Positions 30,364 to 50,024 of a stretch of DNA of 64,000 nt are shown here, one piece after another. The notes beneath the pieces are model-generated. The model made no database searches, was not told where the DNA came from, and worked only from the letters and a program-made list of their open reading frames with translations. This DNA comes from Bacteroidota bacterium (GTDB lineage: Bacteria > Bacteroidota > Bacteroidia > Chitinophagales > Saprospiraceae). A program made the translations under genes and the position numbers. Where the stretch lies: NCBI GenBank assembly GCA_020160935.1, contig JAIUPL010000008.1:1-64000 (forward strand), written 5' to 3'. The stretch's first letter is position 1, and each line of letters begins with the position of its first letter.

Positions 30364-30598
30364 ATCGACAATAATTGGCGCAAAGCCTTTTAATAAAAGA
30401 AAAGAATAAGGACTAAGGAGTTAAAGAAATATTATGCAGCATTGCGCCACCCCATACAAGATGAGTGCGCGCTATGGTGAAAAACAGTAAAAGTTAGTAG
30501 ATTAGATTATGAAAGAGTCCGGCAGGGAAGAGTGATTCGGCCCTCCAATGTAAGCGTCCGGTGAATATATAAACAAATATTTTACAGGAAAATCTGAT

Positions 30599-31327
30599 TC
30601 AGTGCTTCTTTTGCCCCAAGGCCTGCATCAGCGTATCCACGGAGGCGTCGCTCACCGGAATTTGGTGGGTACCAATCTGGATAGCCTGGCTGCGGATGGA
30701 TTCAATTTTGTCCAGATGCACCAGAAATGATTTGTGTACCCGCATGAATTTTCGGGCGGGCAATTTTTCTTCAATAGCTTTCAGGGTGCTTTTGGTAATG
30801 ATGGGTTTGGGGGCGCCAGAAAGAAATATTTTCACATAGTCCTTCATGCTTTCGACATGGGTAATGTCGGGTACCGATATTTTGACCAGGGCGTATTCTA
30901 CATTTACAAAAAAGGATTCTTCTCCGGGAGGTGCTGACGAAGTAGTTTGTTGTTCCAGGGCCACCCTTTTTTGCTTTTCTTCCAGCGCTTTCAGGGCGGC
31001 TTTGGTAAAACGCTCCATACTCACGGGTTTCATCACATAATCGATCACATCCAGGTCGTAGCCCTGCACGGCAAAATTGGAATAGGCCGTTACCAGAATC
31101 GTCATGGGCTTGTCGCGCAGGCTTTGCAGAAACTGTGTGCCCAGCATGCCCGGCATCTGAATATCCAGAAACATGAGATCTACAGCCTGTTCCTGCAACA
31201 TTTGCATGGCCTCAAACGGGTTCTTGCAGGTACCAACCAGTTGAAGAAACGGTAGTTGTTGCACGCTTTCTTCCAGGAGTTTGCGCGCCAGACTTTCGTC
31301 GTCTACGATAATGCATGTCAGTGTCAT
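30599..31327 (-). CDS. LytTR-family response regulator
   Basis: 242 aa. The receiver domain has D9/D10, phospho-acceptor D55 (LMFLDIQMPGMLG), T in ILVTAYSNFAV and K in YVMKPVS. A linker rich in Gln/Glu/Ser is followed by the LytTR domain from about residue 140 (FFVNVEYALVKISVPDITHV, then FMRVHKSFLVHLDKIESI). The start overlaps the stop of the upstream kinase gene by 4 nt (ATGA), so translation is coupled. The pair follows a TonB-dependent receptor gene; together they form a three-gene operon that probably responds to something taken up or sensed at the outer membrane. Confidence 0.92.
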   Translation of the reverse strand: MTLTCIIVDDESLARKLLEESVQQLPFLQLVGTCKNPFEAMQMLQEQAVDLMFLDIQMPGMLGTQFLQSLRDKPMTILVTAYSNFAVQGYDLDVIDYVMKPVSMERFTKAALKALEEKQKRVALEQQTTSSAPPGEESFFVNVEYALVKISVPDITHVESMKDYVKIFLSGAPKPIITKSTLKAIEEKLPARKFMRVHKSFLVHLDKIESIRSQAIQIGTHQIPVSDASVDTLMQALGQKKH

Positions 31328-32346
31328 GTGTCAATGTGCAGATGGACAGTAAACCAGCCGTTTTCGCTGGCGATGTGCAGGACGTGCGAATCAGGATAAA
31401 GCAATTCGAGGCGTCTTCTTACATTTCTCAGACCGATTCCTGTGCCTGCATCTTTCAGGTCGGCCGTGGCAGGCGCCACCTTGTTTTTTACCGAAAGGTC
31501 GAGGCCGTTGTCCCTGATTTTCAAATCGATGTCGATCAGTGGATTTTCCAGCATGCTCACACCGTGTTTGTAGGCATTTTCTACAAAAGGAATCAGCAGC
31601 ATGGGTTCGATCAACTGATCGGTAGCGGTTCCGTCGATGTGGAACCTGATTTCGACGTCTTCCTCAAAGCGGATTTTTTGCAGTTCTATGTAATTCTGAA
31701 GGTAGGCTATCTCCTTTTCCAGCGGTATGCGGGCATTTTCCGATTCATACAACATGTATCGCATGAGTTCGGACAGTTTGATGATGACGGGTTCTGCCAG
31801 TTCCGATTTGGATCGGATGAGGTACACCAGGCTGTTCAGCACGTTAAAAATAAAGTGCGGACTGATTTGGGAGCGCAGAAAAGACAACTCCGATTGCAGG
31901 CGCTCCTGTTTTTTTTCCTGTTGTTTTTGTTCTTGCCGCACCACATAATTCAACAGCCCGTAGCCTGTACTGATGGCGGCTACCATGACAAGTGCGAGCG
32001 TGCCTTTCATCATAACTTTATGGCCATTCCAGTCGGTGATCGTTCCCTGGCATTCACCCATCCACATAAAAATGTGGTAATGGAAAAAACTGAATGCAGC
32101 CAGAACACCCATGAGTGACCAGAAATACACCACGGCTCCTTTTTTGGGGAAAATATGCGGAATCAGCCATTCCGTATTCAACAGAAAGAGAGGTAAATGA
32201 GTGCTCAGGATCATGCTGCAAATCATGATCGTTCTGTTTATCAGTTCTTCGTCCCGCGCATTCGACACAGACAAAAAAATCCATATGCTCCACAGGCTCA
32301 TGTGAAACAGTACTTTTTTCTGCGTATCTGTAATCTGAACTTTCAT
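31324..32346 (-). CDS. LytS/YehU-type sensor histidine kinase
   Basis: 340 aa. Four predicted membrane helices fill residues ~10-145 (MSLWSIWIFLSV, IMICSMILSTHLPLFLL, VVYFWSLMGVLAAFSFF, LALVMVAAISTGYGLLNY), with little outside the membrane. A coiled-coil segment (RQEQKQQEKKQERL) leads into the His-kinase domain: FLRSQISPHFIFNVLNSLVY with the phospho-His, N-box LLIPFVENAYKHG and G-box AGTGIGLRNVRRRLELLY. It lies 8 nt after the TonB receptor gene and overlaps the regulator gene by 4 nt, so receptor, kinase and regulator are made together. Confidence 0.92.
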   Translation of the reverse strand: MKVQITDTQKKVLFHMSLWSIWIFLSVSNARDEELINRTIMICSMILSTHLPLFLLNTEWLIPHIFPKKGAVVYFWSLMGVLAAFSFFHYHIFMWMGECQGTITDWNGHKVMMKGTLALVMVAAISTGYGLLNYVVRQEQKQQEKKQERLQSELSFLRSQISPHFIFNVLNSLVYLIRSKSELAEPVIIKLSELMRYMLYESENARIPLEKEIAYLQNYIELQKIRFEEDVEIRFHIDGTATDQLIEPMLLIPFVENAYKHGVSMLENPLIDIDLKIRDNGLDLSVKNKVAPATADLKDAGTGIGLRNVRRRLELLYPDSHVLHIASENGWFTVHLHIDT

Positions 32347-32354
32347 TTTCAGGT

Positions 32355-34841
32355 TTAATTCCCGCTAAAATCGGGTATTTCTTCTACTTGTTGTTTTTTA
32401 TTTCCTTTTCTGGAAGCGAGCCCGTCGGCATTGCCAAATGCAAACTGCAATGCTACCTTGAAAAAGCGGCTATCGCGCCGGCGCATGGCTTCCTGATAAA
32501 AAGTAGGCTGCTCCAAAATGGTAATGTTGCGACGGGAATCGAACACATCGTTGACGGAGAACACCAGGTTGGCAGCATTGCGAAACAAGGTTTTTTTCAC
32601 CGCCACATCCATAAAAGCAACACCCTGGCGCGTGCCTTGCGGATTGGGACGATTTCCCTCGAAAGCGCCGTTCAACTGCACCGAAAAACCCGCCGGTAGT
32701 TTGTAACTGACACCGGCCTTGGCATTGGCCGTCCAGCCGCTGTTGCTAAACGTGTCGACCGCTACATTGAAATGGAAGACGTTGGCATTGAGCATGAGTT
32801 CGAGGTTTTTGCCAAATGCCAGTTTCAACGTGTTGTCGAGGCCGTAGTTGAGTTCGTTTTTGCCGTTTACAAATGTGGTAATCAATATGGTTGGATCGTC
32901 TTCCGAAGGAAGCGTAAGTGGTTTCAACGTATTGGTTTCGTTGCTCACGTACAGGGTACTCAACCAGTTGTGTGCCCCGAAAATGCGATTGAAATTCAAT
33001 TCGGCCAGGTTGACAAACTCGGGTTGCAGGTTGGGATTGCCGAGTTGGATATTTTGTTTGTCGTTGGCTTGCACGCCCGGCGTCAGTTGACGCGGATTGG
33101 GGCGTTGTATTTTTCGACTGAAATTGAGACCCAATTCCGTCCGCTCATCCAGTTTTTTGGATACATGCAGCGAAGGAAACAGTGAGCGCAACACATCGCG
33201 GGCCGTACTGCCGGGATATTGATACCCGAAATCCGAAGTGCCTTCCAGTCGCGAGATGCCCGTCATGCCAGAGGTTTCGAAGCGCACACCTGCCTGATAA
33301 TCAATGCCGTATTTCCAGCGGCCTGTGTAGGAAACGTAAGCGGCCTGAATATTTTCCGTGATGCGGGTGTCCTGCGACAACAGATCATTGAGCAGGTAAG
33401 CACTCGTAGCGTAATCGTAATCGCTGAAAAAATAACCCTGGTCGCGGCTGCTGAAAAAACTTCTGACGCCCATTTCCAGTTTGCTGGAATCGTTCACAGG
33501 CCGCACGTAATCCATTTGAAACACCCATTGTTCGTTTTTCCCCGAGCCCTGAATGTCGGCCAGTTCGGGAAAGCCGGGCAACATCTCTCCGCCTGCGTCA
33601 AAACCGCTGGTGTTCCAGTTGCCGGAATTGGAAGTAGTTCCCCAGGCGTAGTTCAAAAGCGTGGTCAGCGACTTTCCGGGTGTGGCAAACTGCTTTTTCC
33701 ATTGTGCTTCTACATTGTTTCTGGCAAAATCGTTGCCCGAATAGGTGTTTCGAACGCCGAAGCCGGTGCGCAGCCGTTCGGACGAGAGGTATTCATACGA
33801 TTGCACGACGGGAATATTGAACCGCCCACCCGAAACAGTACCCGACAGCGACAAGGCATTGCGGTTGTCGAGCGCATAATCGATGTTGAGTCGGCCGCTT
33901 TGAAAAGCGTTGTCGTACACTACATCGGACTGCTGGTTGAAATAATCCAGCACCGTACTGGTGCCTGCTGCCAAATTGCTGCGGTAGACGTACGCATTTG
34001 TTACTGCTTTCGAAGCGTTCAGGTTGTAAAATGCGGAGATATTCCATTTGCCCAGGTTGGCATTCAGGTTGAGCATGCCGTTATATCGATCCTGCGTACC
34101 CACTCCAATATTGGCTATGCCCGAGAAGCCTGGCTTGCGGTTCTTTTTGAGCACAATATTCACGATGCCGCCCATGGTGGCTGCCTCATATTTAGCAGAA
34201 GGATTGGAAATGACTTCTACGGATTCGATTTGATCGGAAGGTATCTGGTTGAGCGACAACAGGGTAGGTTTTCCGTCGACATAAATTGTGGCATCCTTGT
34301 CGCGCAATTTGGCAATGCCGTCTATATCGACCGTCACGGAAGGTACATTTTTAAGGACGTCTTCTGCTGTGCCGCCTGTGGCAGTGATGTTTTTTTCAAC
34401 GTTAAACACCCTTTTTTCGAGGCTGATAGAAGTGGTTGCCTTATCGGCTCGGACATCCACTGTGCTGAGCATTTGTGCATCAGGCGACATGGCGAGGTTG
34501 CCCAAATCGATGGACGTGGCATTGGGCGCAGCAAGGCGGGCGGTTTTCACCACTTCCTTGTTGCCCATGTAGGCGATTTTTACCTTGAAAGCGCCCATTG
34601 GCAGGCCGGTAATGTTGAAATCGCCGTTTTCCAGCGTCAATCCGCCACCCAGCAGGCTATCGCGGCCATTTGGCAAAATCAGCCACGCCGATGCGGATGC
34701 ATAGGCTATGGGCTGCTTTGTGCTGGCATCTACCACTTTTCCGTACAAGCGACCGATAGACGGCCCGGCACCTGGAATTTTTTGTGCTGTTACAGAACCG
34801 GCCAGCAACAAACAAATAAAAAGCAACGATACGTTTTTCAT
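32355..34841 (-). CDS. TonB-dependent outer-membrane receptor with carboxypeptidase-like N-domain
   Basis: 828 aa. Signal peptide MKNVSLLFICLLLAGSVTAQ. Residues ~28-115 are a carboxypeptidase-regulatory-like beta sandwich (LYGKVVDASTKQPIAYASAS). The plug has EDVLKNVPSVTVDIDGIAKL and VEVISNPSAKYEAATMGGIV; the rest is a long beta barrel of the OMP_b-brl_3 type ending near RFFKVALQFAFGN, with a short soluble tail. The TonB box is not distinct. The substrate is unknown. No SusD partner lies beside it, so it is not a classical sugar pair. It is the first gene of an operon with a LytS/LytR pair, with a -7 box at 34898. Confidence 0.88.
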   Translation of the reverse strand: MKNVSLLFICLLLAGSVTAQKIPGAGPSIGRLYGKVVDASTKQPIAYASASAWLILPNGRDSLLGGGLTLENGDFNITGLPMGAFKVKIAYMGNKEVVKTARLAAPNATSIDLGNLAMSPDAQMLSTVDVRADKATTSISLEKRVFNVEKNITATGGTAEDVLKNVPSVTVDIDGIAKLRDKDATIYVDGKPTLLSLNQIPSDQIESVEVISNPSAKYEAATMGGIVNIVLKKNRKPGFSGIANIGVGTQDRYNGMLNLNANLGKWNISAFYNLNASKAVTNAYVYRSNLAAGTSTVLDYFNQQSDVVYDNAFQSGRLNIDYALDNRNALSLSGTVSGGRFNIPVVQSYEYLSSERLRTGFGVRNTYSGNDFARNNVEAQWKKQFATPGKSLTTLLNYAWGTTSNSGNWNTSGFDAGGEMLPGFPELADIQGSGKNEQWVFQMDYVRPVNDSSKLEMGVRSFFSSRDQGYFFSDYDYATSAYLLNDLLSQDTRITENIQAAYVSYTGRWKYGIDYQAGVRFETSGMTGISRLEGTSDFGYQYPGSTARDVLRSLFPSLHVSKKLDERTELGLNFSRKIQRPNPRQLTPGVQANDKQNIQLGNPNLQPEFVNLAELNFNRIFGAHNWLSTLYVSNETNTLKPLTLPSEDDPTILITTFVNGKNELNYGLDNTLKLAFGKNLELMLNANVFHFNVAVDTFSNSGWTANAKAGVSYKLPAGFSVQLNGAFEGNRPNPQGTRQGVAFMDVAVKKTLFRNAANLVFSVNDVFDSRRNITILEQPTFYQEAMRRRDSRFFKVALQFAFGNADGLASRKGNKKQQVEEIPDFSGN

Positions 34842-34897
34842 CTCTGATATGATTCAACCGTGCAGCAAAGGCACGGACTCTTGTAATAATGTTGTTG

Positions 34898-34905
34898 CAA
34901 AGGTA
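34898..34905 (-). promoter_or_regulatory. -7 box (TACCTTTG) of the TonB-receptor/LytSR operon
   Basis: A perfect match to TAnnTTTG, 56 nt upstream of the receptor ATG, implying a leader of about 50 nt. No clear -33 TTG at the usual spacing. Confidence 0.5.
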
Positions 34906-34988
34906 AAAGCAGGGGCGCTCCGCTATTCGAGGTGGCGACCATCAGGGCAATTGTAGAGATGAAAAAGGGAAATGCGGCGCTTCGGAAC

Positions 34989-35891
34989 TTATTCTCTGCT
35001 CCCGATAATATTGTCTTCTACATAATACTCGTAATCGGAAAGCGGTTTGCCTTGTTCCGTTTTGATCAGTTGACCGTTCTGATTGTACGTTCGGAGCGGC
35101 CCGTACAGCACACCCTGTTTGAAGCGGCCTTCCAGTTGGAGTTTGCCGTTGGGGTGATACCATTTGCAGGGGCCTTCAAACGCTAAATTCCAGTCGAGTA
35201 CGCTGCCTTTGGAATAATTTTCGGGATACAAACTGTAATAATAGGAATGATAGTAACCTGTAAACTGAATGTTACCCGAAACATAACGGCCTTCAACGTA
35301 AAAATATGTGCTGCCTTCACTGCCATACCATTCGGAATGATCGCCATAGGAAATGACCCCTGGCCGGTCGCTTTGCACACTTTTGGCCAGGCGGAACCAG
35401 GCTGTTTTGGTGAAATCCGTTGGCCGCACCCCGTTTTTATCGTACAGGCACCACTGTTCGAATCCCTGCACGTAGGAATATACGCCGACGCGCAACCTGT
35501 TGTTGGAAATTTCAGTTAGAGGTTTGTTAACCCGCGTTGCTTTATATGCCTGATTCCCAACTGTATACGACCAGTTGTTGCCATCAAAATACGTCACCGA
35601 AGAAGCATATTCATGGCTTCTGTAGTTGGCGTCGAATTCTTTCATATAAAACACCCGGTCGCGAAATGTCCAGGAAAATGTAGCCTCCCGGTCTTTGGTA
35701 ATCACATATCCGACTCCTCCTTCGTAGTCGCTTTGGCCTTTTATGACGAAATAAAACACTTCATTGCCTGGCACGGTCACCGATCGCCAGATGCCGTAAT
35801 AGGCAGGGCTTTCCAGAGGATTCTGGCTGTGCAATGGCAGGCAGATGGCCATTGTAAAACAGAGCAATAAATAGTTTAATGGATGTTGCAT
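34989..35891 (-). CDS. Secreted MORN-repeat-type protein
   Basis: 300 aa from the ATG at 35891, giving a signal peptide (MQHPLNYLLLCFTMAICLPL, cleavage near HSQ). The first ~150 residues form an unrecognised Tyr/Trp-rich beta domain (YYGIWRSVTVPGNEVFYFVI). The C-terminal part has two MORN-variant repeats (GPCKWYHPNGKLQLEGRFKQ, then YGPLRTYNQNGQLIKTEQGK), as in the YwqK-like family. Such repeats are usually binding scaffolds. It lies 50 nt downstream of thuA on the same strand, so the two could be co-transcribed. Confidence 0.75.
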   Translation of the reverse strand: MQHPLNYLLLCFTMAICLPLHSQNPLESPAYYGIWRSVTVPGNEVFYFVIKGQSDYEGGVGYVITKDREATFSWTFRDRVFYMKEFDANYRSHEYASSVTYFDGNNWSYTVGNQAYKATRVNKPLTEISNNRLRVGVYSYVQGFEQWCLYDKNGVRPTDFTKTAWFRLAKSVQSDRPGVISYGDHSEWYGSEGSTYFYVEGRYVSGNIQFTGYYHSYYYSLYPENYSKGSVLDWNLAFEGPCKWYHPNGKLQLEGRFKQGVLYGPLRTYNQNGQLIKTEQGKPLSDYEYYVEDNIIGSRE

Positions 35892-35941
35892 GGGATACGA
35901 AGGTGCAAAATTTTGTTGATACCCTGATCTGCTCCTGATTT

Positions 35942-36832
35942 TCAATTCGCTAGTGATGCTCGTCCCAACCACAATAAACCGTTCAAAATCATCCTGTTCT
36001 GGGCTTCGCTTTGAAAACTACCCGACAAGGCGCGGTTGGTGCCACCTTCATAGTCCATGTCGTTGTGGCCCATATTGAAATAGAGCATGCGGTATTTCCG
36101 ATTCGTCCACACGACCGGGTAATCGCCTTCATGCCAGATTTCGTGGGCCTTGGGGCCGGTTCCCAACGGAAAACTGGATGGGTCGATGGATACCAGTACT
36201 TCTATGTCGGGCTGCTGGCGCAGGTCATTTTCCCAGCGGTACCACTCATTCGGCGCCGATGGAAAAGTTGAAGGAAGTCCCTGCATGGCCAGGTGTTCGG
36301 GCTGTTCTACGCGGAGAATGGCAGAAGTCGGTCGCCAGGTATTGCTTTTGTAGGCGCCCGAGCCTAGAAATTCCTGGTGGTACCAGTCCCAGTTTTGCGG
36401 ATAAGCGGAAGGCGTAAGCGCAAAAGCCGAGAAGTGAAAACCCATCCAGGCGCCGCCATTTTTCATATAGTGTTCGAAAGCGTTGCGTTGCGCTTCCGCT
36501 TCGGGGCGGGTATCCAGGAAAATCACGACATCGATATTTTTCACGGAATCCGGGTGCAAACGCCCCCAATTTCGAGTAGAATCGTAGGTAAAATGATGCA
36601 GTCGGGCCATGTTGGCCAGCCAGGTATTGGCTTCGTGTACAAAACTGATGTGCGCCAGGTCGGCCTGCGCGGTGTAAAATCCAAGTACCTGAAACGCAGG
36701 TTTTGAATGCTGATTTGTCGGGTGAAGCGCCTTACATGAAATTTGTAACAGGGCAAAAATGACGGCGCAGCCCAGGATTGCGAGCCGTAAATGCCTGTTC
36801 ACAAAGAAGGTATTTTCAAACGTGTTTTTCAT
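35942..36832 (-). CDS. ThuA-domain lipoprotein
   Basis: 296 aa. The signal peptide ends in a lipobox (LLQISC). The mature part is a ThuA-like (trehalose-utilisation) glutamine-amidotransferase fold: VLGFYTAQADLAHISFVHEA, DVVIFLDTRPEAEAQRNAFE, the motif GGAWMGFHFSAFA, HLAMQGLPSTFPSAPNEWY, and YPVVWTNRKYRMLYFNMGHN. ThuA proteins are linked to sugar metabolism, but the reaction is unsettled. The ATG overlaps the TGA of a truncated PhyH reading frame (ATGA), which shows thuA was once the second gene of a PhyH-thuA operon now broken by an insertion; its current promoter is unclear. Confidence 0.88.
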   Translation of the reverse strand: MKNTFENTFFVNRHLRLAILGCAVIFALLQISCKALHPTNQHSKPAFQVLGFYTAQADLAHISFVHEANTWLANMARLHHFTYDSTRNWGRLHPDSVKNIDVVIFLDTRPEAEAQRNAFEHYMKNGGAWMGFHFSAFALTPSAYPQNWDWYHQEFLGSGAYKSNTWRPTSAILRVEQPEHLAMQGLPSTFPSAPNEWYRWENDLRQQPDIEVLVSIDPSSFPLGTGPKAHEIWHEGDYPVVWTNRKYRMLYFNMGHNDMDYEGGTNRALSGSFQSEAQNRMILNGLLWLGRASLAN

Positions 36833-37016
36833 GTGTCGAGTCCCATTCTGATGGCTTGTTCAATCGGACAAAGTACATCTTCATCTCCGAAAACATCAAA
36901 TTCGTGTTTGGACAACAGCGGCGGCTGTGCCATGAATTTAGGTACGCTGCCTTTGTGATCCTGCGCAGCATGCACCAGAAACGGATGGCACAAATATACC
37001 GTACCCGCCTCGCCGC
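36803..37016. repeat. Direct repeat, left copy (PhyH 3' end plus thuA 5' end)
   Basis: About 213 bp matching 42374-42586 in the same orientation with roughly 16 substitutions and no obvious indel. The repeat holds the first ~10 codons of thuA and the last ~62 codons of the PhyH gene. Outside it the two loci are unrelated. Confidence 0.88.
36829..37016 (-). pseudogene. 3' remnant of a PhyH-family dioxygenase gene
   Basis: About 62 codons that match the C-terminal end of the intact PhyH gene at 42400-43188 at roughly 92% DNA identity, in frame and with the same TGA next to thuA. Seen in translation are the H of the last metal-site strand (CHPFLVHAAQDHKGSVPKF) and the end AIRMGL. The 5' part is missing; the homology stops at about 37016, only 6 nt before the stop codon of the T9SS gene. 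It is one half of a direct duplication that brackets a 5.4-kb segment. Confidence 0.85.
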
Positions 37017-37022
37017 GCTCTA

Positions 37023-38552
37023 TCAGCCTTTTTTCACCACCTTTCGCGCCACAGTATTACCTGCCCTGGTCAGTCGTACAATGTACAAACCATCTTCCAG
37101 TGTGCTCAAATCCAGTCTGTTTTCAGTGGTGTGGCGTTTTTGCAAGAGCACCTGCCCGGCCAGGTTGAGTACCTCGATACGTTCCCAGGGGGCCTCCTGA
37201 TCATCGTCGATATTCAGTACGGCCGCAGTAGGGTTGGGAAATAACCGCAAGGCATCGTACGTGGAAGCGGCCGGTGAGGAAGTGGGCAGCACGGCACAAC
37301 TCAGGGTGTCGACACATCCATCGGCGCTTACCTTGATCAGCCAGCCCCAGTCTTTTGGCGCGGGTTCGTAGGTTCGGCTGTATCCGCAGGCGATGATGCT
37401 GCCACTGGGGAGTTCTATGGCGTCGTAGAGGTAGTTGGCCGAGCCGGTTTGTGTGCTCCAGAAAGCGGTGTCTATCCGGCTCCAGACTTTGTTGACATTG
37501 CTGTCAATTTTGTACATCCATCCGGACAGGGCGTTGAATTCGGTAGAGAAAGGCTGGGTAGCATAATTGGCGGGTTTGGTTCCCATGGCCATCCAGCCGC
37601 CGTTTTGCAGTGGAATCACATTGAGAAAGGCGGTAACGGGGCTATCAGCCACGCCAAATGTATCCTGTTTGATCAGGTTGAACTGCTCATCCCGCACCAC
37701 CATTTTGGGTTGTATGGATATTTCGTTGTAAGTGGCATTGTACCAACCTCTGGCACTGTTATACACCCATTTGTTGTCGTTGGTATGGAAGATTGAACCC
37801 GCGCCCATTTCATCGAGCGAAGGCTGTGTTTGCCATTCCCATTTGAGGTTGCCCAGGCTGTCGATGGCGAAAATTTTGCTGGTGTTGTTGATGAGATTAG
37901 TCGGGACATTAATTCTTACAGTACTACCGCCTATTACATATTCATTTGCGTTGAGTAAAATACAATCACCTAAGACACTCACCCTGTTCGGAGTTGAGAA
38001 TTTTTTTTCCCAAAGCACATTTCCTTCAAAGTCTGTTTTCATTGCAAATATTTCTGCGTTGTAAGTGATGGGGTTTTGTTTTTCACCCAAAATCAAAAAA
38101 CCGTTTTCCAGTTCGAGTACTTGTCTGAAAAAATCAGCCAATGAAACCTGATCTTCATATTCCATATATCTGGTCACGTTTCCTGCCATGTCAAATAGGG
38201 CCAGATAGCCATCGTCGCGGTAAAATATTTGTCCAACTCCGGCATAACCACCCCCATTGGATAATTTAATAAAACTTTTCTGATTCACTCTGGTAAAATC
38301 ATCTTCCAGGCTGTCATTATACACTTGATGATCGATGATATTTCCAAAAGTATCCATCCTGGCAAATAACATCCCAAATGCAGGCATTCCGAATTCTTTG
38401 GCAACTCCGTATACTACGATGGTATCGTGTGTGTGTTCTATACTGAAGAAGCCTGCTGCTTTGGCGCCGAGATCGTAGGATCGATTGAAGCCCGGTTGGG
38501 CCTGCAAGTTTATTTCATACAAAAATGACAGGAGCAAAAATATATGTTTCAT
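37023..38552 (-). CDS. T9SS-secreted beta-propeller-like protein with type A sorting domain
   Basis: 509 aa. Signal peptide MKHIFLLLSFLYEINLQAQ. The body has repeated strands with aromatic and GxxxxxG patterns (NGGGYAGVGQIFYRDDGYLA, LENGFLILGEKQN, LNANEYVIGGSTVRI, QNGGWMAMGTKPAN, LPSGSIIACGYSRT), in the style of delta-60/propeller repeats. The last ~75 residues are a type A T9SS domain (LFPNPTAAVLNIDD, IEVLNLAGQVLLQK, LDLSTLEDGLYIVRL, KVVKKG). It lies inside the inserted 5.4-kb segment, and its stop is 6 nt from the left direct repeat. A 162-bp foldback element sits 14 nt upstream of its ATG. Confidence 0.82.
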   Translation of the reverse strand: MKHIFLLLSFLYEINLQAQPGFNRSYDLGAKAAGFFSIEHTHDTIVVYGVAKEFGMPAFGMLFARMDTFGNIIDHQVYNDSLEDDFTRVNQKSFIKLSNGGGYAGVGQIFYRDDGYLALFDMAGNVTRYMEYEDQVSLADFFRQVLELENGFLILGEKQNPITYNAEIFAMKTDFEGNVLWEKKFSTPNRVSVLGDCILLNANEYVIGGSTVRINVPTNLINNTSKIFAIDSLGNLKWEWQTQPSLDEMGAGSIFHTNDNKWVYNSARGWYNATYNEISIQPKMVVRDEQFNLIKQDTFGVADSPVTAFLNVIPLQNGGWMAMGTKPANYATQPFSTEFNALSGWMYKIDSNVNKVWSRIDTAFWSTQTGSANYLYDAIELPSGSIIACGYSRTYEPAPKDWGWLIKVSADGCVDTLSCAVLPTSSPAASTYDALRLFPNPTAAVLNIDDDQEAPWERIEVLNLAGQVLLQKRHTTENRLDLSTLEDGLYIVRLTRAGNTVARKVVKKG

Positions 38553-38566
38553 GAATGTTTAATTAA

Positions 38567-38728
38567 ATGAGGCTGTCTCATAAATATCGACCTGGAAGAA
38601 AATGAGATATTTGTTTGATAGAGATGCCAGACCTCCCAGGTTTTGAAAACCCGGACGGTATAGAAGCATCGGAAATAGAATAACATTTTTCTTTCTTTTC
38701 CAGGCCGACAGTTGTGAGACTGCCTCAT
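38567..38728. mobile_element. MITE-like foldback, 162 bp
   Basis: Terminal inverted repeats of about 32 nt begin ATGAGGCTGTCTCAT on the left and ATGAGGCAGTCTCAC on the right (read inward), and remain similar through CGACCTGGAA against CGGCCTGGAA. Inside is CCAGGTTTTGAAAACCCGG, a near-palindrome. No target duplication or coding frame is seen. It begins 14 nt upstream of the T9SS gene's ATG and ends 9 nt from the stop of the M43 gene, so any promoter for the T9SS gene must lie within it or further upstream. Confidence 0.7.
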
Positions 38729-38737
38729 GCATGAAAA

Positions 38738-40213
38738 TTATTTGTTCAATACAATTTTGCCGCTTTGTTTTACTACGCCCTGGACGATAACCTGATAGAA
38801 ATACATTCCGCCAGGGCAAGTGTCTGTTTGCCAGGTAAATCCACCTTTCGCTGAAACATTCGTTACGGCTTTTACGACTCGGGCATTTATATCTGTAATC
38901 AAAACAGATACCTGATCGATCTCATCAGCAGGTTCAAACAAAAATTGTACAACGTCGCTTGCCGGGTTCGGTAAAGCCGTTACCCATTTTTTAGATACCT
39001 GATTATGGCCCGTTTTTGCCCGAGGTTCTGTAGCAGGCTCCAGCACGCAGGCAACGGGGAAATGCGCGCCATACAAAGTTAAAATATTTTCGAGTCGCCC
39101 CTGTGCCGAACCTTTTAAATCTGTAAGACTTTCCAGTTTATGGAGGGTCACTTTGTCCAGATCATATATAGATTTTCCTTCGAGCAGTGCTCCTATGGAT
39201 TTATAATTCTCGAGATCGGCAGACTTTTCACTATCCAGTTCGTATTTGCCAATTGCCTCATCCAGAAGTGTTTGCGCTGTGAGGTAGTTCCCCAGCATTT
39301 GGCGTTCGTCAGACAACCATACATCCCCTTCCACGCTGCCCAGGTGGCCAATCCAGGTGTGCAAGGTATCGGCACTGAATTCTGTAGTGTCATAAAGGGT
39401 ATGAATTACCACCATATAGGCGTCTTCATCCATTGTACGTTGATAGTAGGCCAGATTGCGCAACTTGCTTTCTGTCGGTTCCAGGGCGTATGTTGTCTTT
39501 AGACTCTGAAATGCTGCCCTTTTTTCAAAGAAGTCGTTTTTGATAAGGATGATTTCTTCTTTGGATTTGCAGGGAGGGGCGCAAAAATCCTGAACGCATA
39601 GATTGGTTTCTGCGCCTAATTTAATTACATCACCTTCGAGGGTTATTGGTTCTTCACTTTCTCCATTTTCATCATAATAATATTGAATTGTTGTTCCTAA
39701 ATTTGAGAAATCAACATTGGTATATGAAAATTGATTTCCGGCAGCATTGTAGTTCACATCTGTTTGAGACGACACTTCCAATCCTTGAGCGGCCCGAATT
39801 TCCCCTCCGGCAGACACCAGATAATCCTTGTCTACTACGTTTTGATTCACATTGCAATCAAAATACAGGCCGCGGGGAATGTTTCCGACCTGGCCTGCAT
39901 TGGATTCATTCACAACATTGCCATAATTCAGGCTCTGGTATGTATTCCTTCGGATTATTTTGTTGGAACTGCCCGTATTCTTACAAAACGTACCAATAGT
40001 CGGCACGTCTTCCGCACCATATTTATTCATAAAAGTATTTTCCTGGCAGGTGAATCCGGCTATGTCATTTTCGAATACGATACCAAATTGTTTGGGTGTC
40101 TCAACCGGATCACCCGGGTCTGTACTTGGCACGTAATTATAAGGTATTTTCCCAAGCATGAATGTATTGAAAAGGATAGTAGCCCCTGTTACCCTTGCAT
40201 TGCGGATACCCAC
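38738..40213 (-). CDS. C-terminal part of a frameshifted M43 metalloprotease/beta-helix protein, with T9SS type A domain
   Basis: 491 aa in the frame after the shift; GTG at 40213 is only a formal start. The N-terminal part continues the beta-helix of the upstream frame (GIRNARVTGATILFNTFML); the middle is alpha-helical; the last ~85 residues are a type A T9SS sorting domain (ALPNPASDVVQFLF, VLITDINARVVKA, PGGMYFYQVIVQG, GKIVLNK). Removing one A from the A5 run at 40226-40230 joins it with the upstream frame, reading KQGNFDRCGVGIRNA, giving about 1113 aa. If the shift is real this part is not secreted on its own, because it lacks a signal peptide. Confidence 0.75.
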   Translation of the reverse strand: MGIRNARVTGATILFNTFMLGKIPYNYVPSTDPGDPVETPKQFGIVFENDIAGFTCQENTFMNKYGAEDVPTIGTFCKNTGSSNKIIRRNTYQSLNYGNVVNESNAGQVGNIPRGLYFDCNVNQNVVDKDYLVSAGGEIRAAQGLEVSSQTDVNYNAAGNQFSYTNVDFSNLGTTIQYYYDENGESEEPITLEGDVIKLGAETNLCVQDFCAPPCKSKEEIILIKNDFFEKRAAFQSLKTTYALEPTESKLRNLAYYQRTMDEDAYMVVIHTLYDTTEFSADTLHTWIGHLGSVEGDVWLSDERQMLGNYLTAQTLLDEAIGKYELDSEKSADLENYKSIGALLEGKSIYDLDKVTLHKLESLTDLKGSAQGRLENILTLYGAHFPVACVLEPATEPRAKTGHNQVSKKWVTALPNPASDVVQFLFEPADEIDQVSVLITDINARVVKAVTNVSAKGGFTWQTDTCPGGMYFYQVIVQGVVKQSGKIVLNK

Positions 40214-40223
40214 GCCGCAGCGG

Positions 40224-42080
40224 TCAAAAATTGCCTTGTTTTACAGTATATGGCTTATTGACGCTTCCTCGGGTAGCATAAATGCCATATCCAAGGCCGG
40301 AAAAAGTAGAATAGGTATAGGAACTGAATGGATAGGTACTCCCTTCCCCCCGCGCAATAACATCGAACCCGGAATCAAGTGCGTAGATTCCTTTATCACT
40401 GGTATTCATGTCGCTTTCAATGCCAGTTCGGGTATTGGTAAATGAACAACCGGAAAACAATACACCATCGACGCCTTTCAGGCTGGCCATCGTAGGCGTC
40501 AACGTAAAAGGATAGACATCATCTGTCAGGAAAGTAGTGCTGAAAAATGAAGCCGCATATTTTCTGGGTTGCCCCTGCTGCGCTACAGGTACAGAGTAGG
40601 GCCAGAAATTCTGGTACGGATTAAAATCTACTCCGGTAGCACAGTTTTTTATGGTAGCGCCATCGCTTGTTACCTGTCCGCCGGCCTGGGATGCAGCAGG
40701 CCCATACAACTGAATACCGATTTCTGCATTTTCAATCAGCGACCCCGGGCGGCACTTGATGCGGCCTTGCGCAAAAACATTACCAACGGCATACTGCGAT
40801 TGACTGGAAGCACTTCCATATACTTTTACTCCTTTCCAGGTATAACCATTGCACCCTCTGCCGCTTAATGTACCATACAGTTCCAGTTTTGCGTTTGGTT
40901 TGATAATCAGGCTGTTACTAGGGCCGAAATGCAGCGTTACTCCAGACTGAACAGTGAAAGTAGCGCCCGATTCAACCACCAGATCGCCTTCTATTCGTAC
41001 ATCGCCGTTGTGAGGCGTGTTGGAGATTGTCCATGTGGTGCTCGTATTAATGGTAAGTCCTGTAAAATCAACTGGTACAATACATGCTTGTAATACAGGC
41101 GATATCGTCTGGATCATAGTGTGCATTCGTGCTGCCTGTCCTTCTGTAAACCGAGTCATGCATTTATCGTGCGAATAAGACATGATTAGTGTTTCATCAG
41201 GATCAAAGAGAGTCTCCTGAGAATCTGTTTCTTCAAGATTGTATGTGCAGTTTTCATAAATATTTGGCGTACAGGCGAAGAGTTTAGGGTCAGGTGGGGT
41301 ATCTGAAATATAATCGCCACACGACTCATCGTCATTGGTGTTTGCGACTAAATCTTCGCAAACAGTAGGGTCTGCCACGTTCCCATTGCAGTCTGTACCA
41401 TCCAGTTCTATGCCGTGGTGCGTATGCCAAAGCCCCAGGCAATGCCCCATTTCATGCGAAATAGTGTGTGATCGAGACGATACCCACTGCAATGCAGCAG
41501 GGCAGTTATCGGGCCCTCCATCGCCGTATATACTTCCTTTCACAATAAACGATTTTCCGGGAATGCCAGATGCGGCATTGTGCCCTGGAGCATCGTCGCC
41601 GCCTATAAAAATATCGATGCCATCTGCATGACTGGAATATTGCGATAGCATGCAATTGGGCGCGGCAGGATATGTTGCGTTGTATAAGGCAGTGTTGTTA
41701 ATGGGTATAACGCCACAGACTTGGATAAAAAAGATACTGTGCTCCTCGAAATCTTCCTGGAGAATTTCCATCGACTGCCTGATTTGGGCCAGTGTAGGCG
41801 CTCCGCTGCCATCGTCCTTGCCTACTGCATGCACATATACCCGCAGATACACAGGGGCAAAATTGTTGGCAGTAAAACTATTGGAAGGTATGTTGAGCAT
41901 CCCGATGGAGCCGGGGCCGCCTGTGGTGCCACAAATTTCCTGGGCAAATGAAGTCCGGGCAAATAATACCCAGAAAAGAAGAAAAATCAGTGTGCGAACA
42001 GTGATTTTTGAAACAGTGAGTGGTGTTTTGGTTTGCCAAATGCAGGAAACCAAGACACACGATGAAGGTGTGTTTTGCAT
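40224..42080 (-). CDS. N-terminal part of a frameshifted pappalysin-like (M43) metalloprotease
   Basis: 618 aa before the frameshift. The signal peptide lies at about residues 24-47 (KITVRTLIFLLFWVLFARTS). The zinc site is HTISHEMGHCLGLWHTHHG, the HExxHxxGxxH motif of M43 pappalysin-like proteases, with the Met-turn at IMSYSHDKCMTRFTEGQ; Cys residues between them are typical. After ~residue 370 comes a parallel beta-helix (GDLVVESGATFTVQSG, LIIKPNAKLELYGTLSG). It ends at TGA 40224-40226, just where the downstream frame continues the helix, so the T9SS domain needed for secretion is cut off. It lies in the inserted segment; an AT-rich 320-nt gap precedes it. Confidence 0.82.
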   Translation of the reverse strand: MQNTPSSCVLVSCIWQTKTPLTVSKITVRTLIFLLFWVLFARTSFAQEICGTTGGPGSIGMLNIPSNSFTANNFAPVYLRVYVHAVGKDDGSGAPTLAQIRQSMEILQEDFEEHSIFFIQVCGVIPINNTALYNATYPAAPNCMLSQYSSHADGIDIFIGGDDAPGHNAASGIPGKSFIVKGSIYGDGGPDNCPAALQWVSSRSHTISHEMGHCLGLWHTHHGIELDGTDCNGNVADPTVCEDLVANTNDDESCGDYISDTPPDPKLFACTPNIYENCTYNLEETDSQETLFDPDETLIMSYSHDKCMTRFTEGQAARMHTMIQTISPVLQACIVPVDFTGLTINTSTTWTISNTPHNGDVRIEGDLVVESGATFTVQSGVTLHFGPSNSLIIKPNAKLELYGTLSGRGCNGYTWKGVKVYGSASSQSQYAVGNVFAQGRIKCRPGSLIENAEIGIQLYGPAASQAGGQVTSDGATIKNCATGVDFNPYQNFWPYSVPVAQQGQPRKYAASFFSTTFLTDDVYPFTLTPTMASLKGVDGVLFSGCSFTNTRTGIESDMNTSDKGIYALDSGFDVIARGEGSTYPFSSYTYSTFSGLGYGIYATRGSVNKPYTVKQGNF

Positions 42081-42373
42081 AAATGAAATTGTGTATAGTG
42101 AAAAAATGAATAGCGTATTAAAAAAACAAACCCCTCGTAATCAGTCTAATATAGTTTCATAGCAAACATGCTTAGAGCGCACTAAAATATAAAACTATTC
42201 TTTTCCCTGCAAATTTTATTATCCAACCAGACAAACTCCGGGACATATAACGAGAATATCATATCATGTTCTATTTCTACTCATATTAATGGGAGCCGGA
42301 TAGGGCGGATCAAGCCACAAAAATCCATTTTATTTACTTCATTCACCCAAGTCCCAGCCATGAGGCGAAGACG
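42081..42373. other. AT-rich intergenic region at the edge of the insertion
   Basis: About 290 nt with no convincing reading frame on either strand. It is visibly richer in A+T than the flanking genes, and presumably carries the promoter of the M43 protease gene. The right direct repeat begins at 42374. I see no transposase remnant. Confidence 0.5.
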
Positions 42374-42586
42374 AAAAAAGGTATTTTCAAATGTGTTTTT
42401 CATGTGCCGAGTCCCATTCTGATGGCTTGTTCAATCGGACAAAGCGCGGCTTCATCCCCGAAAATATCAAATTCGTGTTTGGACAACAGCGGCGGCTGAG
42501 CCATGAATTTCGGAACGCTGCCTTTGTGATCCTGCGCAGCATGCACCAGAAACGGATGGCATAAATATACAGTGCCTGCGTCGCCG
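42374..42586. repeat. Direct repeat, right copy (thuA 5' end plus PhyH 3' end)
   Basis: Matches 36803-37016 at about 92% identity in direct orientation. Here the PhyH part belongs to the intact gene, whereas the thuA part is only a start (MKNTFENTFF) that runs into unrelated sequence at about 42374. Confidence 0.88.
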
Positions 42587-43188
42587 GTCGCCTGCGCTAG
42601 CGTATGCCCTTTCCCTGCATCCAGGTGCTGTGCCAGTTCCATGAAAGAAAGCCCCGCCGACCCATGCGGTTCCAGTATTCTGGCTACTTCCAGGTGCGAG
42701 CCTTCCTGGATCAAGGTGGGAGCATCCATCTCGCCGACATCCGAAAACAGAAAAAGCATCAGCAGCGCGCGGCCTCTGGATTGCACATTGATGCGCCATT
42801 GCAGGTAATCCTCGGGCAGATCGCCGGGAAAACTGGCATCCACATGCCATCCGGTATCGTTGGCCGGAATATCGCTGGGAAATCGAATGGGGAAGGAGCC
42901 CAGGCTGGTTCTGGGCAGCCAGTTGTCGCCGGCCAGTTGTTGAAATGCCTGAAGCAAGACGGGTGTATTGGCGGCTTGCTGAAAAGGTGGCAGTCCTATT
43001 TCTCCAATTCTGACGACAGGCTGCGTCCAGGTGGCCGGGTCATCGGGGTCGGTCTGGGTGGCTTTCCACAAAATGCTGCGGCAAGCATCGGCCAATTCCC
43101 GAGAAAAGGCATGTTCGACTTTTACATAACCTTTTTGGATAAAATGCTGGATTTGGGTGGGCGATAAGGGTATGTCATTCCGTTTCAT
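42400..43188 (-). CDS. Phytanoyl-CoA dioxygenase (PhyH) family protein
   Basis: 262 aa. The Fe(II)/2-oxoglutarate site is visible as GWHVDASFPGD (HxD) and, near the C-terminus, VYLCHPFLVHAAQDH (second His) followed by a basic residue. The protein begins with MKRNDIPLSPTQIQHFIQKG, a typical helix of the family. Substrate unknown; bacterial members hydroxylate diverse small molecules. The frame is open 59 codons further upstream, but that is only the translated palindrome at 43274-43478, so I start at 43188; a -7-like box TACCTTGG lies 4 nt before. It was once followed by thuA, of which only ten codons remain here. Confidence 0.87.
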   Translation of the reverse strand: MKRNDIPLSPTQIQHFIQKGYVKVEHAFSRELADACRSILWKATQTDPDDPATWTQPVVRIGEIGLPPFQQAANTPVLLQAFQQLAGDNWLPRTSLGSFPIRFPSDIPANDTGWHVDASFPGDLPEDYLQWRINVQSRGRALLMLFLFSDVGEMDAPTLIQEGSHLEVARILEPHGSAGLSFMELAQHLDAGKGHTLAQATGDAGTVYLCHPFLVHAAQDHKGSVPKFMAQPPLLSKHEFDIFGDEAALCPIEQAIRMGLGT

Positions 43189-43192
43189 ACCT

Positions 43193-43200
43193 CCAAGGTA
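43193..43200 (-). promoter_or_regulatory. Putative -7 box of the PhyH gene
   Basis: TACCTTGG, one mismatch from TAnnTTTG, then AGGT and the ATG at 43188. If used, the mRNA would be leaderless. Confidence 0.3.
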
Positions 43201-43250
43201 ATGACATGGATGAAAAGTGCCCGGGGGCATAGATATTTCTTGGAGGATCA

Positions 43251-43478
43251 GTTTCCTGCGGATTAAATTTCCGTAGAGTAGTTTCCCGTGGATTAAATTT
43301 CCGTAAAGTATTTTCCCGCAGAACTCGCAGATTTTCCCGCAGAACTCGCAGAATGTAGAGTACACCTACTTCTTCATATCGAGTACACGGTGTACTCTAC
43401 GTTCTGCGAGTTCTGCGGGAAAATCTGCGAGTTCTGCGGGAAAATACTCTACGGGAAATCCACGGGAAACCACTCTAC
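43251..43478. repeat. Long intergenic palindrome with tandem-word arms
   Basis: Arms 43274-43365 and 43389-43478 (about 90 nt) pair with few gaps around a 23-nt loop. The left arm contains two tandem copies of a 21-mer including TTTTCCCGCAGAACTCGCAG (43311-43352). Just outside and overlapping it are two 30-bp direct repeats (43251-43280 and 43281-43310, 3 mismatches). GGTGTACTCTACG at the inner edge also occurs in the foldback at 50731-50851. It lies between the stop of the RND gene and the PhyH promoter. Confidence 0.93.
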
Positions 43479-43494
43479 TGAAAGTAACACAACC

Positions 43495-46400
43495 CTACAC
43501 CTTCGGCGCCAGCACTTTATACATCACCGGTGTCACAATCCTCGACAGCAGCGTAGACGATATCAGCCCTCCGATCAACACATACGCCAGCGGCGAATAC
43601 AAGGGATTTTCTTCCACCGCAATGGGTAACAAACCGCCGATCGCTGTCATGGAGGTCAGCAAAATGGGTACAAAACGAATCTCGCCTGCCTCCTGAATGG
43701 CCTCGTTCAAACTTCGCCCTTCCACCCGCAACTGATTGGTAAAATCGACCAGCAGAATCGAGTTTTTTACCTCGATGCCCATGAGCGCGATGAGGCCAAC
43801 CACCACGGTAAACGAAAACGGATAACCCGTAGCCATCAGAATCAGCACGGCGCCGATAATACCCAGCGGAATCACCGACAACACAATGATTGTGCTGCGG
43901 AAAGTTTTGAATTCCAGCACCAGCACCGCCAGCAACCCGAAAATGGTGATGAGAATGATGGTGCCCAGCCCGCTGAACGAACGTTTGGCGCTTTCCTCCT
44001 CGCCGGCCACCACATAGTGTACGTCTTTGGGGAATTTCATGGCCGCCAGTTTTTCTTTCACCTTGGCATTCACCTGCGAAGGCAGGTAACCCGTTTTTAC
44101 AGAAGCCGTTACGCCTGTAAAACGATCCTTGTCATAGTGTTGAATGTAATTCGGTGAGGGTTTGAACTCTACCTCCGCCACCTGGCTCAGCGGTACGGCC
44201 GTACCCAGTACATTGTTGATATACAGGTTTTTAAATACATCCAGACTGGCAAAAGTCGAGCGTTTGGGGAGCGTCACCGACAGGTTGTATTCTTCGCCAT
44301 CTTCTTTAGCCGTAAAACTGCCCATGTGGAGTCCGGCAATCGCCAGGCGCACCATCCGGTCGATTTCGGCAATGGGAATACCCATTGTAGCGGCTTTGTC
44401 CTTGTTGATGCGTACATACAAGTCCGTTTTGATGGTCGAAATTGGGTTGTCCACATAAATCGTTCCCTCGGTCGAAGCAATGATATTTTCCACTTGAACG
44501 GCTACTTCGCGCAAGGTGTCCAGATTGTCGCCGTACACCCGGATGGCAATAGGCGCATCTACAGGTGGACCTTGTTCAAAATTCTGCACATTGATGCGAG
44601 CGCCGGGTATGTCTTTGAATTTTTCGCGTAGTTCATCGATGAAGGCCACTTTCACTTTTGGGGGCGTTTTTTCCTGCAATTGCACAAAAACCTGCCCGTA
44701 GTCGGGGCTTTCCGTTTCGCGAATGACATTGTAATACACTCGTGGATTGCCGTGCCCGACATTGCTGGAATACCAGGTCACCTGCGCTTTGCCACCCGAA
44801 TAAATCGATTCGGGATGGATGGAATCGGGCAAAAGATGCTGGTTGCGGAATTCGGGCGTTACATACTCATTCAGCACAGAATCAACTACTTGCACAAGCC
44901 GATTGGTTTGATCGAGGCTCGAACCCGCAGCCGCTTCCACATCGATGTACAACATGGGCCGTTCGGAAGCCGGGAAGAGCGCAAACCCGGCTTTTCCTGC
45001 CAGCGCGACCACACCGAAAAAGATGGCTGCCGAAACAACCAGGGTGGTTTTGGGCCATTCCAGGGCTTTGTGCAGCAGTTTGGCGTAGGTGCCCGAAATG
45101 AGCCATTTCAGCCCGCGCAGAAAAATATTTCCCTTCGGATCGTGGTGATCGGCGAGCAGTCGGCTGCCCAGAAACGGTACGATCGTGAGCGACACAAACA
45201 ACGAAGCCAGTACCGTGAGCACTACAGCCATGGGCAGCGAGCGGATAAAATCGCCGGAAGCCTCGGGCAGAAATACCAGCGGCAGAAATGCCAGCACCAA
45301 CGTAGCCGTGCAACCCAGCACCGCCAGTCCGATCTGTTTGGTGGCCAGAATGGCGGCTTCTCGTCGTTTGTAACCCTCTCGCAACCAGCGTTCTATGTTT
45401 TCTACCACCACTATCGAGTCGTCTACCAAAATACCCAGCGCAATGATCAGGCCCACGATACTCAACTGATTCAGGGAATATCCCATCTGATCGAGCGCAA
45501 ATAAACCGATGGCAATACTCAGCGGAATGGAGATCATCACCACCATCGACGCGCGCCAGCCCAGCGGCAACAGCGTGAGCAGCACCAGCAAGATGGCAAT
45601 GCCAAAATCCTTGGCAAAACGGGTCAGGCGCTTCTGTACGGAATCGTTTTGGTCAAAAACCTTTACATAATCCATCGTGGATGGCAGTTCGCTGCGCCAT
45701 TCTTTCACCACGTCATTCACTTGCTGGCCTACCACGGAGATGTTTTGCTCGTCTTTCATACGAGCCGTAATCCATACGCAGCGTGTGCCGTTGATGCGGG
45801 CCAGGTAGCGCGGTTCCTCGTACGCCCAGTCTATTTCAGCGAGGTCTTTCAGGTACAGGATTTTGCCATTGTTGCCGTTCACAACCGTGTTGCGTACCTC
45901 GTCGAGGCTTTCATAGTCGCCGCTGGTTTCCACAAAAAACTTCCGGTCGCCGGCATCGATGGCGCCGCCGGGAATCGATACATTTTCACTTTGCAGGGCT
46001 CCGAGCACACGGCTGACGGGTAGGCCTTCCGAGGCCATTTTGGGCAGGTTGAGGCTGATGCGCACTTCACGTTTGGGGTAGCCCCAGGTGTCGGCGGCTT
46101 TGATACCCGGCAATTTTTCCAGTTCCTCCTCCAGTTTTTCCGCTTCTTTGCGGAGTTCGGCATAGGACGCGTTTTCACTCACCAGACTGCCTTGCAGAAT
46201 AGCCACATCGGAAGAGGAAAAACGCTGGATGTTGATGCGGTAAATATCCGAGGGCAGTTCGGGCCGCAGGGCATTCACCTCGCGCACCACCTCTTCGTAT
46301 TTTTTATCGGCATCCTGACCGTGTTTAAATTCCATGGTCAGCAGCATGAACCCGTTGGATGAAATGGAACGCATGCGGTCGATGTTTTCCAGCGAACCGA

Positions 46401-46611
46401 GGCGCGTTTCGAGTTTGTCGGTAATTTTATTTTCAATTTCGGCCGGACCGGCTCCCGGGTACACGATGACAACGTTGTAGCCGGGTGGTGCAAATTTGGG
46501 GTCTTCGGCACGCGGCATATTGAACAGCGAACTGGCGCCCAGCGCCATCACAAAACAAAAAATAATGAAAGTGAACTGGCTGTTCTTGACGGAAAATTCA
46601 GCGATTTTCAT
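43495..46611 (-). CDS. RND-family efflux transporter permease (inner-membrane pump)
   Basis: 1038 aa, normal length, twelve membrane helices in the usual 1+5+1+5 pattern with two large periplasmic loops. The N-terminus reads MKIAEFSVKNSQFTFIIFCF; the helix-4 region holds the proton-relay acidic pair in IIALGILVDDSIVVVENIER. FLPLVFLPEASGDFIRSLP and the C-terminal GLIALMGIEVKNSILLVDFT are also typical. It pumps drugs or other amphiphiles out with the adaptor and outer-membrane channel encoded just upstream. The adaptor stop is 11 nt before this ATG. The operon is probably repressed by the TetR protein at 49311-49922. Confidence 0.95.
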   Translation of the reverse strand: MKIAEFSVKNSQFTFIIFCFVMALGASSLFNMPRAEDPKFAPPGYNVVIVYPGAGPAEIENKITDKLETRLGSLENIDRMRSISSNGFMLLTMEFKHGQDADKKYEEVVREVNALRPELPSDIYRINIQRFSSSDVAILQGSLVSENASYAELRKEAEKLEEELEKLPGIKAADTWGYPKREVRISLNLPKMASEGLPVSRVLGALQSENVSIPGGAIDAGDRKFFVETSGDYESLDEVRNTVVNGNNGKILYLKDLAEIDWAYEEPRYLARINGTRCVWITARMKDEQNISVVGQQVNDVVKEWRSELPSTMDYVKVFDQNDSVQKRLTRFAKDFGIAILLVLLTLLPLGWRASMVVMISIPLSIAIGLFALDQMGYSLNQLSIVGLIIALGILVDDSIVVVENIERWLREGYKRREAAILATKQIGLAVLGCTATLVLAFLPLVFLPEASGDFIRSLPMAVVLTVLASLFVSLTIVPFLGSRLLADHHDPKGNIFLRGLKWLISGTYAKLLHKALEWPKTTLVVSAAIFFGVVALAGKAGFALFPASERPMLYIDVEAAAGSSLDQTNRLVQVVDSVLNEYVTPEFRNQHLLPDSIHPESIYSGGKAQVTWYSSNVGHGNPRVYYNVIRETESPDYGQVFVQLQEKTPPKVKVAFIDELREKFKDIPGARINVQNFEQGPPVDAPIAIRVYGDNLDTLREVAVQVENIIASTEGTIYVDNPISTIKTDLYVRINKDKAATMGIPIAEIDRMVRLAIAGLHMGSFTAKEDGEEYNLSVTLPKRSTFASLDVFKNLYINNVLGTAVPLSQVAEVEFKPSPNYIQHYDKDRFTGVTASVKTGYLPSQVNAKVKEKLAAMKFPKDVHYVVAGEEESAKRSFSGLGTIILITIFGLLAVLVLEFKTFRSTIIVLSVIPLGIIGAVLILMATGYPFSFTVVVGLIALMGIEVKNSILLVDFTNQLRVEGRSLNEAIQEAGEIRFVPILLTSMTAIGGLLPIAVEENPLYSPLAYVLIGGLISSTLLSRIVTPVMYKVLAPKV

Positions 46612-46622
46612 ACGATGGGGCT

Positions 46623-47717: not shown

Positions 47718-47798
47718 AAAATTGATGGTGATTCGACTCCTTGGCAGAGCGTTCGAAATCGAGAGGGAAGTTTTTCTAAATATTTGAAATAGAATTAT

Positions 47799-49160: not shown

Positions 49161-49183
49161 TATGATAAAAACAGTTTTAATAA

Positions 49184-49200
49184 ACTGAACAGTGTTTACT
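49184..49200. promoter_or_regulatory. Putative TetR operator upstream of the efflux operon
   Basis: ACTGAACAGTGTTTACT, an imperfect 17-bp palindrome (half-sites ACTGAACA and TGTTTACT). It matches the palindrome at 50032-50048 at all but two positions. It sits in the tetR-tolC gap just before the tolC gene. Confidence 0.6.
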
Positions 49201-49210
49201 TTATGGTGCA

Positions 49211-49235
49211 AAAAAATGCAACCAAAACTGGTTGC
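49211..49235 (-). terminator. Rho-independent terminator of the tetR gene
   Basis: On the minus strand the perfect 7-bp stem GCAACCA/TGGTTGC with a 4-nt loop is followed by a run of seven T after one A. It lies about 75 nt past the tetR stop and just before the efflux operator, so tetR and the pump operon are separate units. Confidence 0.72.
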
Positions 49236-49310
49236 TCAAATAAAAACCGCTGAACGGTTGATTTCGGGGGGTGAATTGTCAGATCGGATATACGAGTTGC
49301 ATGCTTTTCT

Positions 49311-49922: not shown

Positions 49923-50024
49923 GTTCTTTTTTTATATGCTGAAGTTATTTGCAGGAAAACGCTTATTTACCTGAAAATCAATTGAATAAAAATGTTATAG
50001 CGTTCAATCTTGCAATTAACAGTG

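Follow-up and report, generated by a model that had tools for sequence, protein, structure and literature searches.

Background

Campbell-type integration by a single crossover leaves the integrated segment flanked by direct repeats of the recombination site.

Duplication followed by loss offers another route to a changed gene order. The duplication-random loss model (TDRL/DRL) is best known from animal mitochondria (PMC5745709). For bacteria, in which gene-order change is debated, Brandis and Hughes (2020) put forward the SNAP hypothesis, to which selection for the duplicated state is central; they propose pseudogenes with matching active copies as the remains of old duplications, and their paper asks for a search for intermediate steps (PMC7055797). 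No paper was found in which two or more of the names Saprospiraceae, PhyH and ThuA occur together.

Here we describe a Saprospiraceae locus in which two copies of a PhyH-thuA junction bracket a segment carrying a T9SS metalloprotease gene (MP) and a gene for a T9SS type A sorting-domain protein (T9_B). The window is the whole 64,000-nucleotide stretch of DNA that was analysed, and the genome from which it comes is called G000. We suggest, with a probability of roughly 0.7, that the repeat was left behind by a local duplication within a resident gene block, the redundant parts of which were then lost in complementary fashion.

Results and discussion

Two copies of a PhyH-thuA junction

A repeat search of positions 30000-50000 returned a single direct pair, 213 nt long and 92% identical (Table 1). 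All genes of the locus discussed here lie on the minus strand, and each copy, read on that strand, consists of the 3' end of PhyH, an ATGA overlap and the 5' end of thuA. Compared base by base, the copies match at 196 of 213 positions, with 17 mismatches and perfect runs of 47, 37 and 33 nt. About 20,000 pairs of 213-nt pieces drawn at random from the region gave at most 80 matching positions. The thuA stub of the right copy comprises the first 10 codons and then reads on into unrelated sequence; the PhyH stump of the left copy comprises 61 codons and begins a few bases past the T9_B stop. Each remnant is thus paired with an intact copy, stump with intact PhyH and stub with intact thuA, as in complementary loss.

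These results bear out the description in an earlier note on this DNA, which had placed the repeats at 36803-37016 and 42374-42586 (correct to within one base) and had judged them about 92% identical by eye. The intact thuA with a PhyH stump on the left, the intact PhyH with a thuA stump on the right and the ATGA in each copy are all as it reported. Homology does not run far past the limits it gave, ending abruptly at both edges.

Table 1. Coordinates of the features of the locus in the window
Feature	Position	Strand	Basis
LytS-like kinase gene, syntenic flank common to G028 (85% aa)	31324..32346	-	synteny
Intact thuA	35942..36832	-	Pfam PF06283, E 1.7e-29
Left repeat: PhyH 3' stump, ATGA overlap, 5' end of intact thuA	36803..37015	-	repeat search and base count
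T9SS type A sorting-domain protein (T9_B), 509 aa	37023..38552	-	profile search
T9SS metalloprotease gene (MP): ORFs MP_N 40224-42080 and MP_C 38738-40213	38738..42080	-	ORFs, weak NCBIfam match
MP upstream region, homologous to G028 RND-MP intergenic	42081..42220	-	alignment
Junction filler, 153 nt, between MP upstream region and thuA stub	42221..42373	-	alignment, blastn
Right repeat: 3' end of intact PhyH, ATGA overlap, thuA stub	42374..42586	-	repeat search and base count
Intact PhyH-like gene, 262 aa; 84% identical to G028 copy	42400..43188	-	ORF and homology search
Palindromic interspersed element between RND and PhyH; 69-nt arms, 96% complementary	43298..43457	.	repeat search, fold
RND pump gene, syntenic flank common to G028 (98% aa)	43495..46611	-	synteny

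The gene names differ in their footing. The PhyH protein, scanned as the 321-aa ORF 42400-43365, had no match among Pfam and NCBIfam families at E 0.001, so the name PhyH is that of the earlier note. MP is named from a weak NCBIfam match (TIGR03952, E 1.3e-4, 21 bits vs a cut-off of 208), and the sorting domains of the T9SS proteins were detected by profile (PF18962, TIGR04183). MP reads as two ORFs because of a frame break near 40213-40224, and its counterpart in the related genome G028 (see below) is a single ORF of >1100 aa; the break may be a real pseudogene or a sequence error, and the earlier note does not mention it. Between MP and T9_B we also observed a MITE-like repeat of about 163 bp (38567-38729) with ends GAGGCTGTCTCA and TGAGACTGCCTC; its relatives lie on G000 contigs C31 and C29 (77% and 80%), and it is absent from the equivalent place in G028.

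A transposon or other insertion element was considered and rejected. We found no inverted repeat of at least 30 nt pairing the segment ends, the 100-nt inner ends pair with a top score of 13 where 500 shuffled versions give a median of 14, and the three main ORFs have no transposase family match. The duplication measures 213 bp and is not short, in keeping with the earlier note's view that some 210 bp is no transposon target duplication.

That assembly or binning falsely joined two loci or strains seems to us highly improbable. The genome is a draft of 51 contigs, and two copies of the 213-bp stretch occur in no other genome of the PhyH searches, as such an error might predict; yet the two copies carry 17 differences in 213 sites, G028 shares synteny on both flanks, the junctions are clean, the contig is 233,799 bp long, and the segment's other matches in G000 are only short, at 75-80%.

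Gene order in a relative of the same genus

The search for PhyH covered 60 genomes, namely the source genome of the window, 36 others of its genus and 23 of its order, and the closest other copy, at 84%, belongs to G028, a Saprospiraceae MAG of the same genus (Saprospiraceae bacterium new MAG-362; contig JAEUUT010000213.1, here C242, locus L016/L069). In the sense of the window's minus strand, the G028 order is TolC, MFP, RND, MP, three copies of T9_B, a HEAT-like ORF (labelled by eye), intact PhyH, a thuA tail, a scrap of MORN-TonB spacer, LytS and LytR. RND, LytS and LytR are 98%, 85% and 93% identical to their window counterparts at the amino acid level. The G028 PhyH stop overlaps an ATG, so that the ATGA join is kept, and thuA then remains only from about aa 265 to 291. 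The HEAT-like ORF has no match in G000, in a search run without a positive control.

Relative to G028, then, PhyH and ten thuA codons precede MP in the window, and the PhyH 3' stump occupies the former place of PhyH. The G028 order indicates that the block was resident, with PhyH and thuA contiguous and MP-T9_B upstream of PhyH, a presumed polarity read from one relative. Adjacency of TonB and LytS recurs in six loci of five other genomes (G016 twice, G008, G024, G003 and G004) and is thus the older state, from which G028 would have lost the body of thuA, MORN and TonB. The earlier note had held that PhyH and thuA were ancestrally adjacent and that relatives might carry them contiguously without the 5.4-kb segment. 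The G028 join upholds the contiguity; the absence of the segment genes does not hold, since MP and T9_B are both present at the G028 locus.

A thuA match (E 1e-8) lies beside PhyH only in the two G028 records among the 25 PhyH-bearing loci profiled, several of which are the same contig twice and some of which are cut by contig ends (15 of 80 listed loci were taken in). Inspection by eye of the ORFs beside PhyH in 17 loci agrees. The stretches downstream of RND in 20 genus-mates, several of which end soon after RND, hold MP, T9_B, PhyH, thuA or LytS in none (0/20).

The MP-T9_B pair and its origin

In all eight other MP-T9_B loci read (L185-L192, chosen from the best MP matches), T9_B directly follows MP on the same strand, and none of these stretches holds PhyH, thuA, RND or LytS at E 1e-6. 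Genome G009 carries two MP-T9_B pairs in tandem, which, together with the three tandem T9_B copies of G028, indicates that the unit duplicates readily. The pair is conserved as a unit of two genes, is capable of tandem copying, and perhaps forms a putative functional unit of type IX secretion cargo. The three G028 copies of T9_B (L016 3981-8654) are 92-98% alike in their C-terminal parts and far more diverged elsewhere.

The earlier note had proposed entry of a segment carrying two T9SS genes into the PhyH-thuA operon, as in Campbell-type integration or repair-linked tandem duplication. A circle or other foreign segment bearing MP-T9_B, entering an intact operon by a single crossover via the 213-bp stretch, would be expected to leave direct repeats with one intact gene and one stump per side, and the pair does lie away from the genes of this locus in the eight others. 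We nevertheless find this distinctly improbable. G028 holds both genes at the same locus, between RND and PhyH and upstream of the latter, so two independent insertions would be needed, and the circle would have to carry the PhyH-thuA stretch beforehand. The three main segment ORFs match no mobility or replication family. A search for a plasmid or circular version of the segment gave no match of its DNA to plasmids (among which environmental plasmids are thinly covered), and MP_N, the only segment protein tried, matched no plasmid, phage or viral contig. Copying of PhyH with complementary loss fits these observations better than integration.

Base composition was likewise considered. GC per kb is 0.40-0.52 across 37-42 kb vs 0.46-0.55 around it, and low GC was rejected as a signature of foreign DNA, since the G028 counterparts are similar in most of the intervals compared.

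Proposed local duplication and complementary loss

From these data we infer the following order of events. The ancestor would have read RND - MP - T9_B (one or more copies) - (HEAT-like ORF) - PhyH - thuA - MORN - TonB - LytS. Once G000 and G028 had diverged, PhyH and the first 10 thuA codons would have gained a second copy between RND and MP. This may have happened in tandem, by duplication of the block from the RND-MP intergenic region to thuA codon 10, after which the first MP-T9_B and the 5' part of the second PhyH were lost, or ectopically, by copying of a piece of about 1 kb, followed by one deletion. The original PhyH would have been shortened later, through a deletion that began just past the T9_B stop and reached PhyH codon 200 or so. 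The net outcome would be a PhyH gene that is now ahead of MP-T9_B and a thuA gene without its PhyH partner.

The tandem route is the commoner kind of event and the ectopic route takes fewer steps; the data fit both. The region upstream of MP aligns to the G028 RND-MP intergenic region with a score of 104, the best of 300 shuffles being 35. Between RND and PhyH, blastn, tblastn and alignments to G028 spacers revealed no remnant of a first MP-T9_B copy above chance, and matches to MP, T9_B and the HEAT-like ORF in 43189-43494 were at chance level (E at least 0.5), so that the tandem version is without direct trace. None of the G028 spacers compared matches the junction filler. Where the filler adjoins the thuA stub, 64 nt of it bear a weak likeness to a G000 intergenic repeat, at 73-80% in the six best other places (74% over 69 nt with E 6e-5 for the best match, E 0.001 to 0.034 for the other five), and this repeat occurs as facing pairs at four places in G000.

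Timing and divergence

Over the 61 shared codons, the two PhyH copies show 10 synonymous and 5 nonsynonymous differences (dS 0.30, dN 0.04), while dS to G028 is 0.70 for the same part of the intact gene and 1.30 for the stump. Divergence is smaller between the copies than between either of them and G028, so the copying came after the G028 split. When changes are polarised by G028, the stump receives 10 and the intact copy 2, with 3 left ambiguous; these are small numbers, and an outgroup at the distance of G028 polarises third positions imperfectly. Seven of the stump's ten derived changes are synonymous by hand count (six by the script's codon-wise label), and three or fewer nonsynonymous changes in ten have a chance of 0.002-0.014 under neutrality, according to transition bias. 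Given this synonymous excess, the stump sequence was probably constrained at the protein level for most of the time since it became separate, and was probably truncated late. Two full PhyH genes may have been kept for a while before that truncation, or the stump may come from a functional gene of another strain.

MP_C and T9_B are also more diverged from G028 (dS 1.54-1.98) than RND, LytR, MP_N, PhyH and LytS are (0.65-0.91), and this higher divergence, like that of the stump, could reflect a stretch from another lineage. A sister strain that kept the ancestral order may have supplied DNA by recombination, bringing MP_C - T9_B - PhyH 3' end - thuA 5' end from a somewhat diverged lineage; the copies would then differ by having come from two functional genes. 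The divergence of MP_C, T9_B and the stump beyond that of their neighbours is consistent with such a transfer, as are the mostly synonymous changes of the stump (7 of 10); the latter, however, also fit two full-length paralogues before truncation. Equally functional donors should have accumulated about equal numbers of derived changes, and the observed 10 to 2 is lopsided. T9_B copies can exchange their sorting-domain end, which, together with fast evolution, can account for part of the divergence. We therefore consider recombination with a sister strain improbable, and favor duplication and complementary loss within the resident block.

Palindromic repeats

The element between RND and PhyH is strongly palindromic: the DNA fold of 43290-43465 has an energy of -82.1 kcal/mol (z -19). 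A 20-nt word of the element occurs 110 times in G000 and 114 times in G028, from 1 to 9 times in five other genomes, and is absent from 35 of 42 genus members (one free base and up to 1 mismatch allowed; a reversed-pattern control gave 0). Among the sites listed, most form reverse/forward pairs. These palindromic intergenic repeats may be sites of DNA breakage that cause local duplications again and again in the G000/G028 lineage, which would make the locus a late and legible intermediate of duplication and loss, a broader proposal that we advance tentatively and regard as unlikely.

Comparison with known systems

The locus is mostly an ordinary, well-resolved rearrangement scar, a compact example and not a new mechanism. 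It is a small candidate intermediate that can be read at the level of single bases and whose likely starting order is displayed by a sister species, and it carries a warning that long direct repeats around an unusual segment need not signal insertion. The direct repeats that bracket the segment resemble those of Campbell integration, but the segment genes are resident at the sister-species locus, and no circle was found in the searches made. Duplication-random loss, as outlined for mitochondria, offers a closer likeness, in that complementary loss of duplicated genes yields a new order and pseudogene remnants; here, unlike there, the setting is a bacterial chromosome and a block of few genes, the tandem step would have to be supposed, and no remnant of the first MP-T9_B was found. 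With SNAP, as its authors present it, the locus shares duplication, divergence, loss of different genes from each copy and a rearranged order, although on a scale of kilobases and not of tens to hundreds of genes; the likeness drawn here is one of pattern, apart from any selection on gene dosage.
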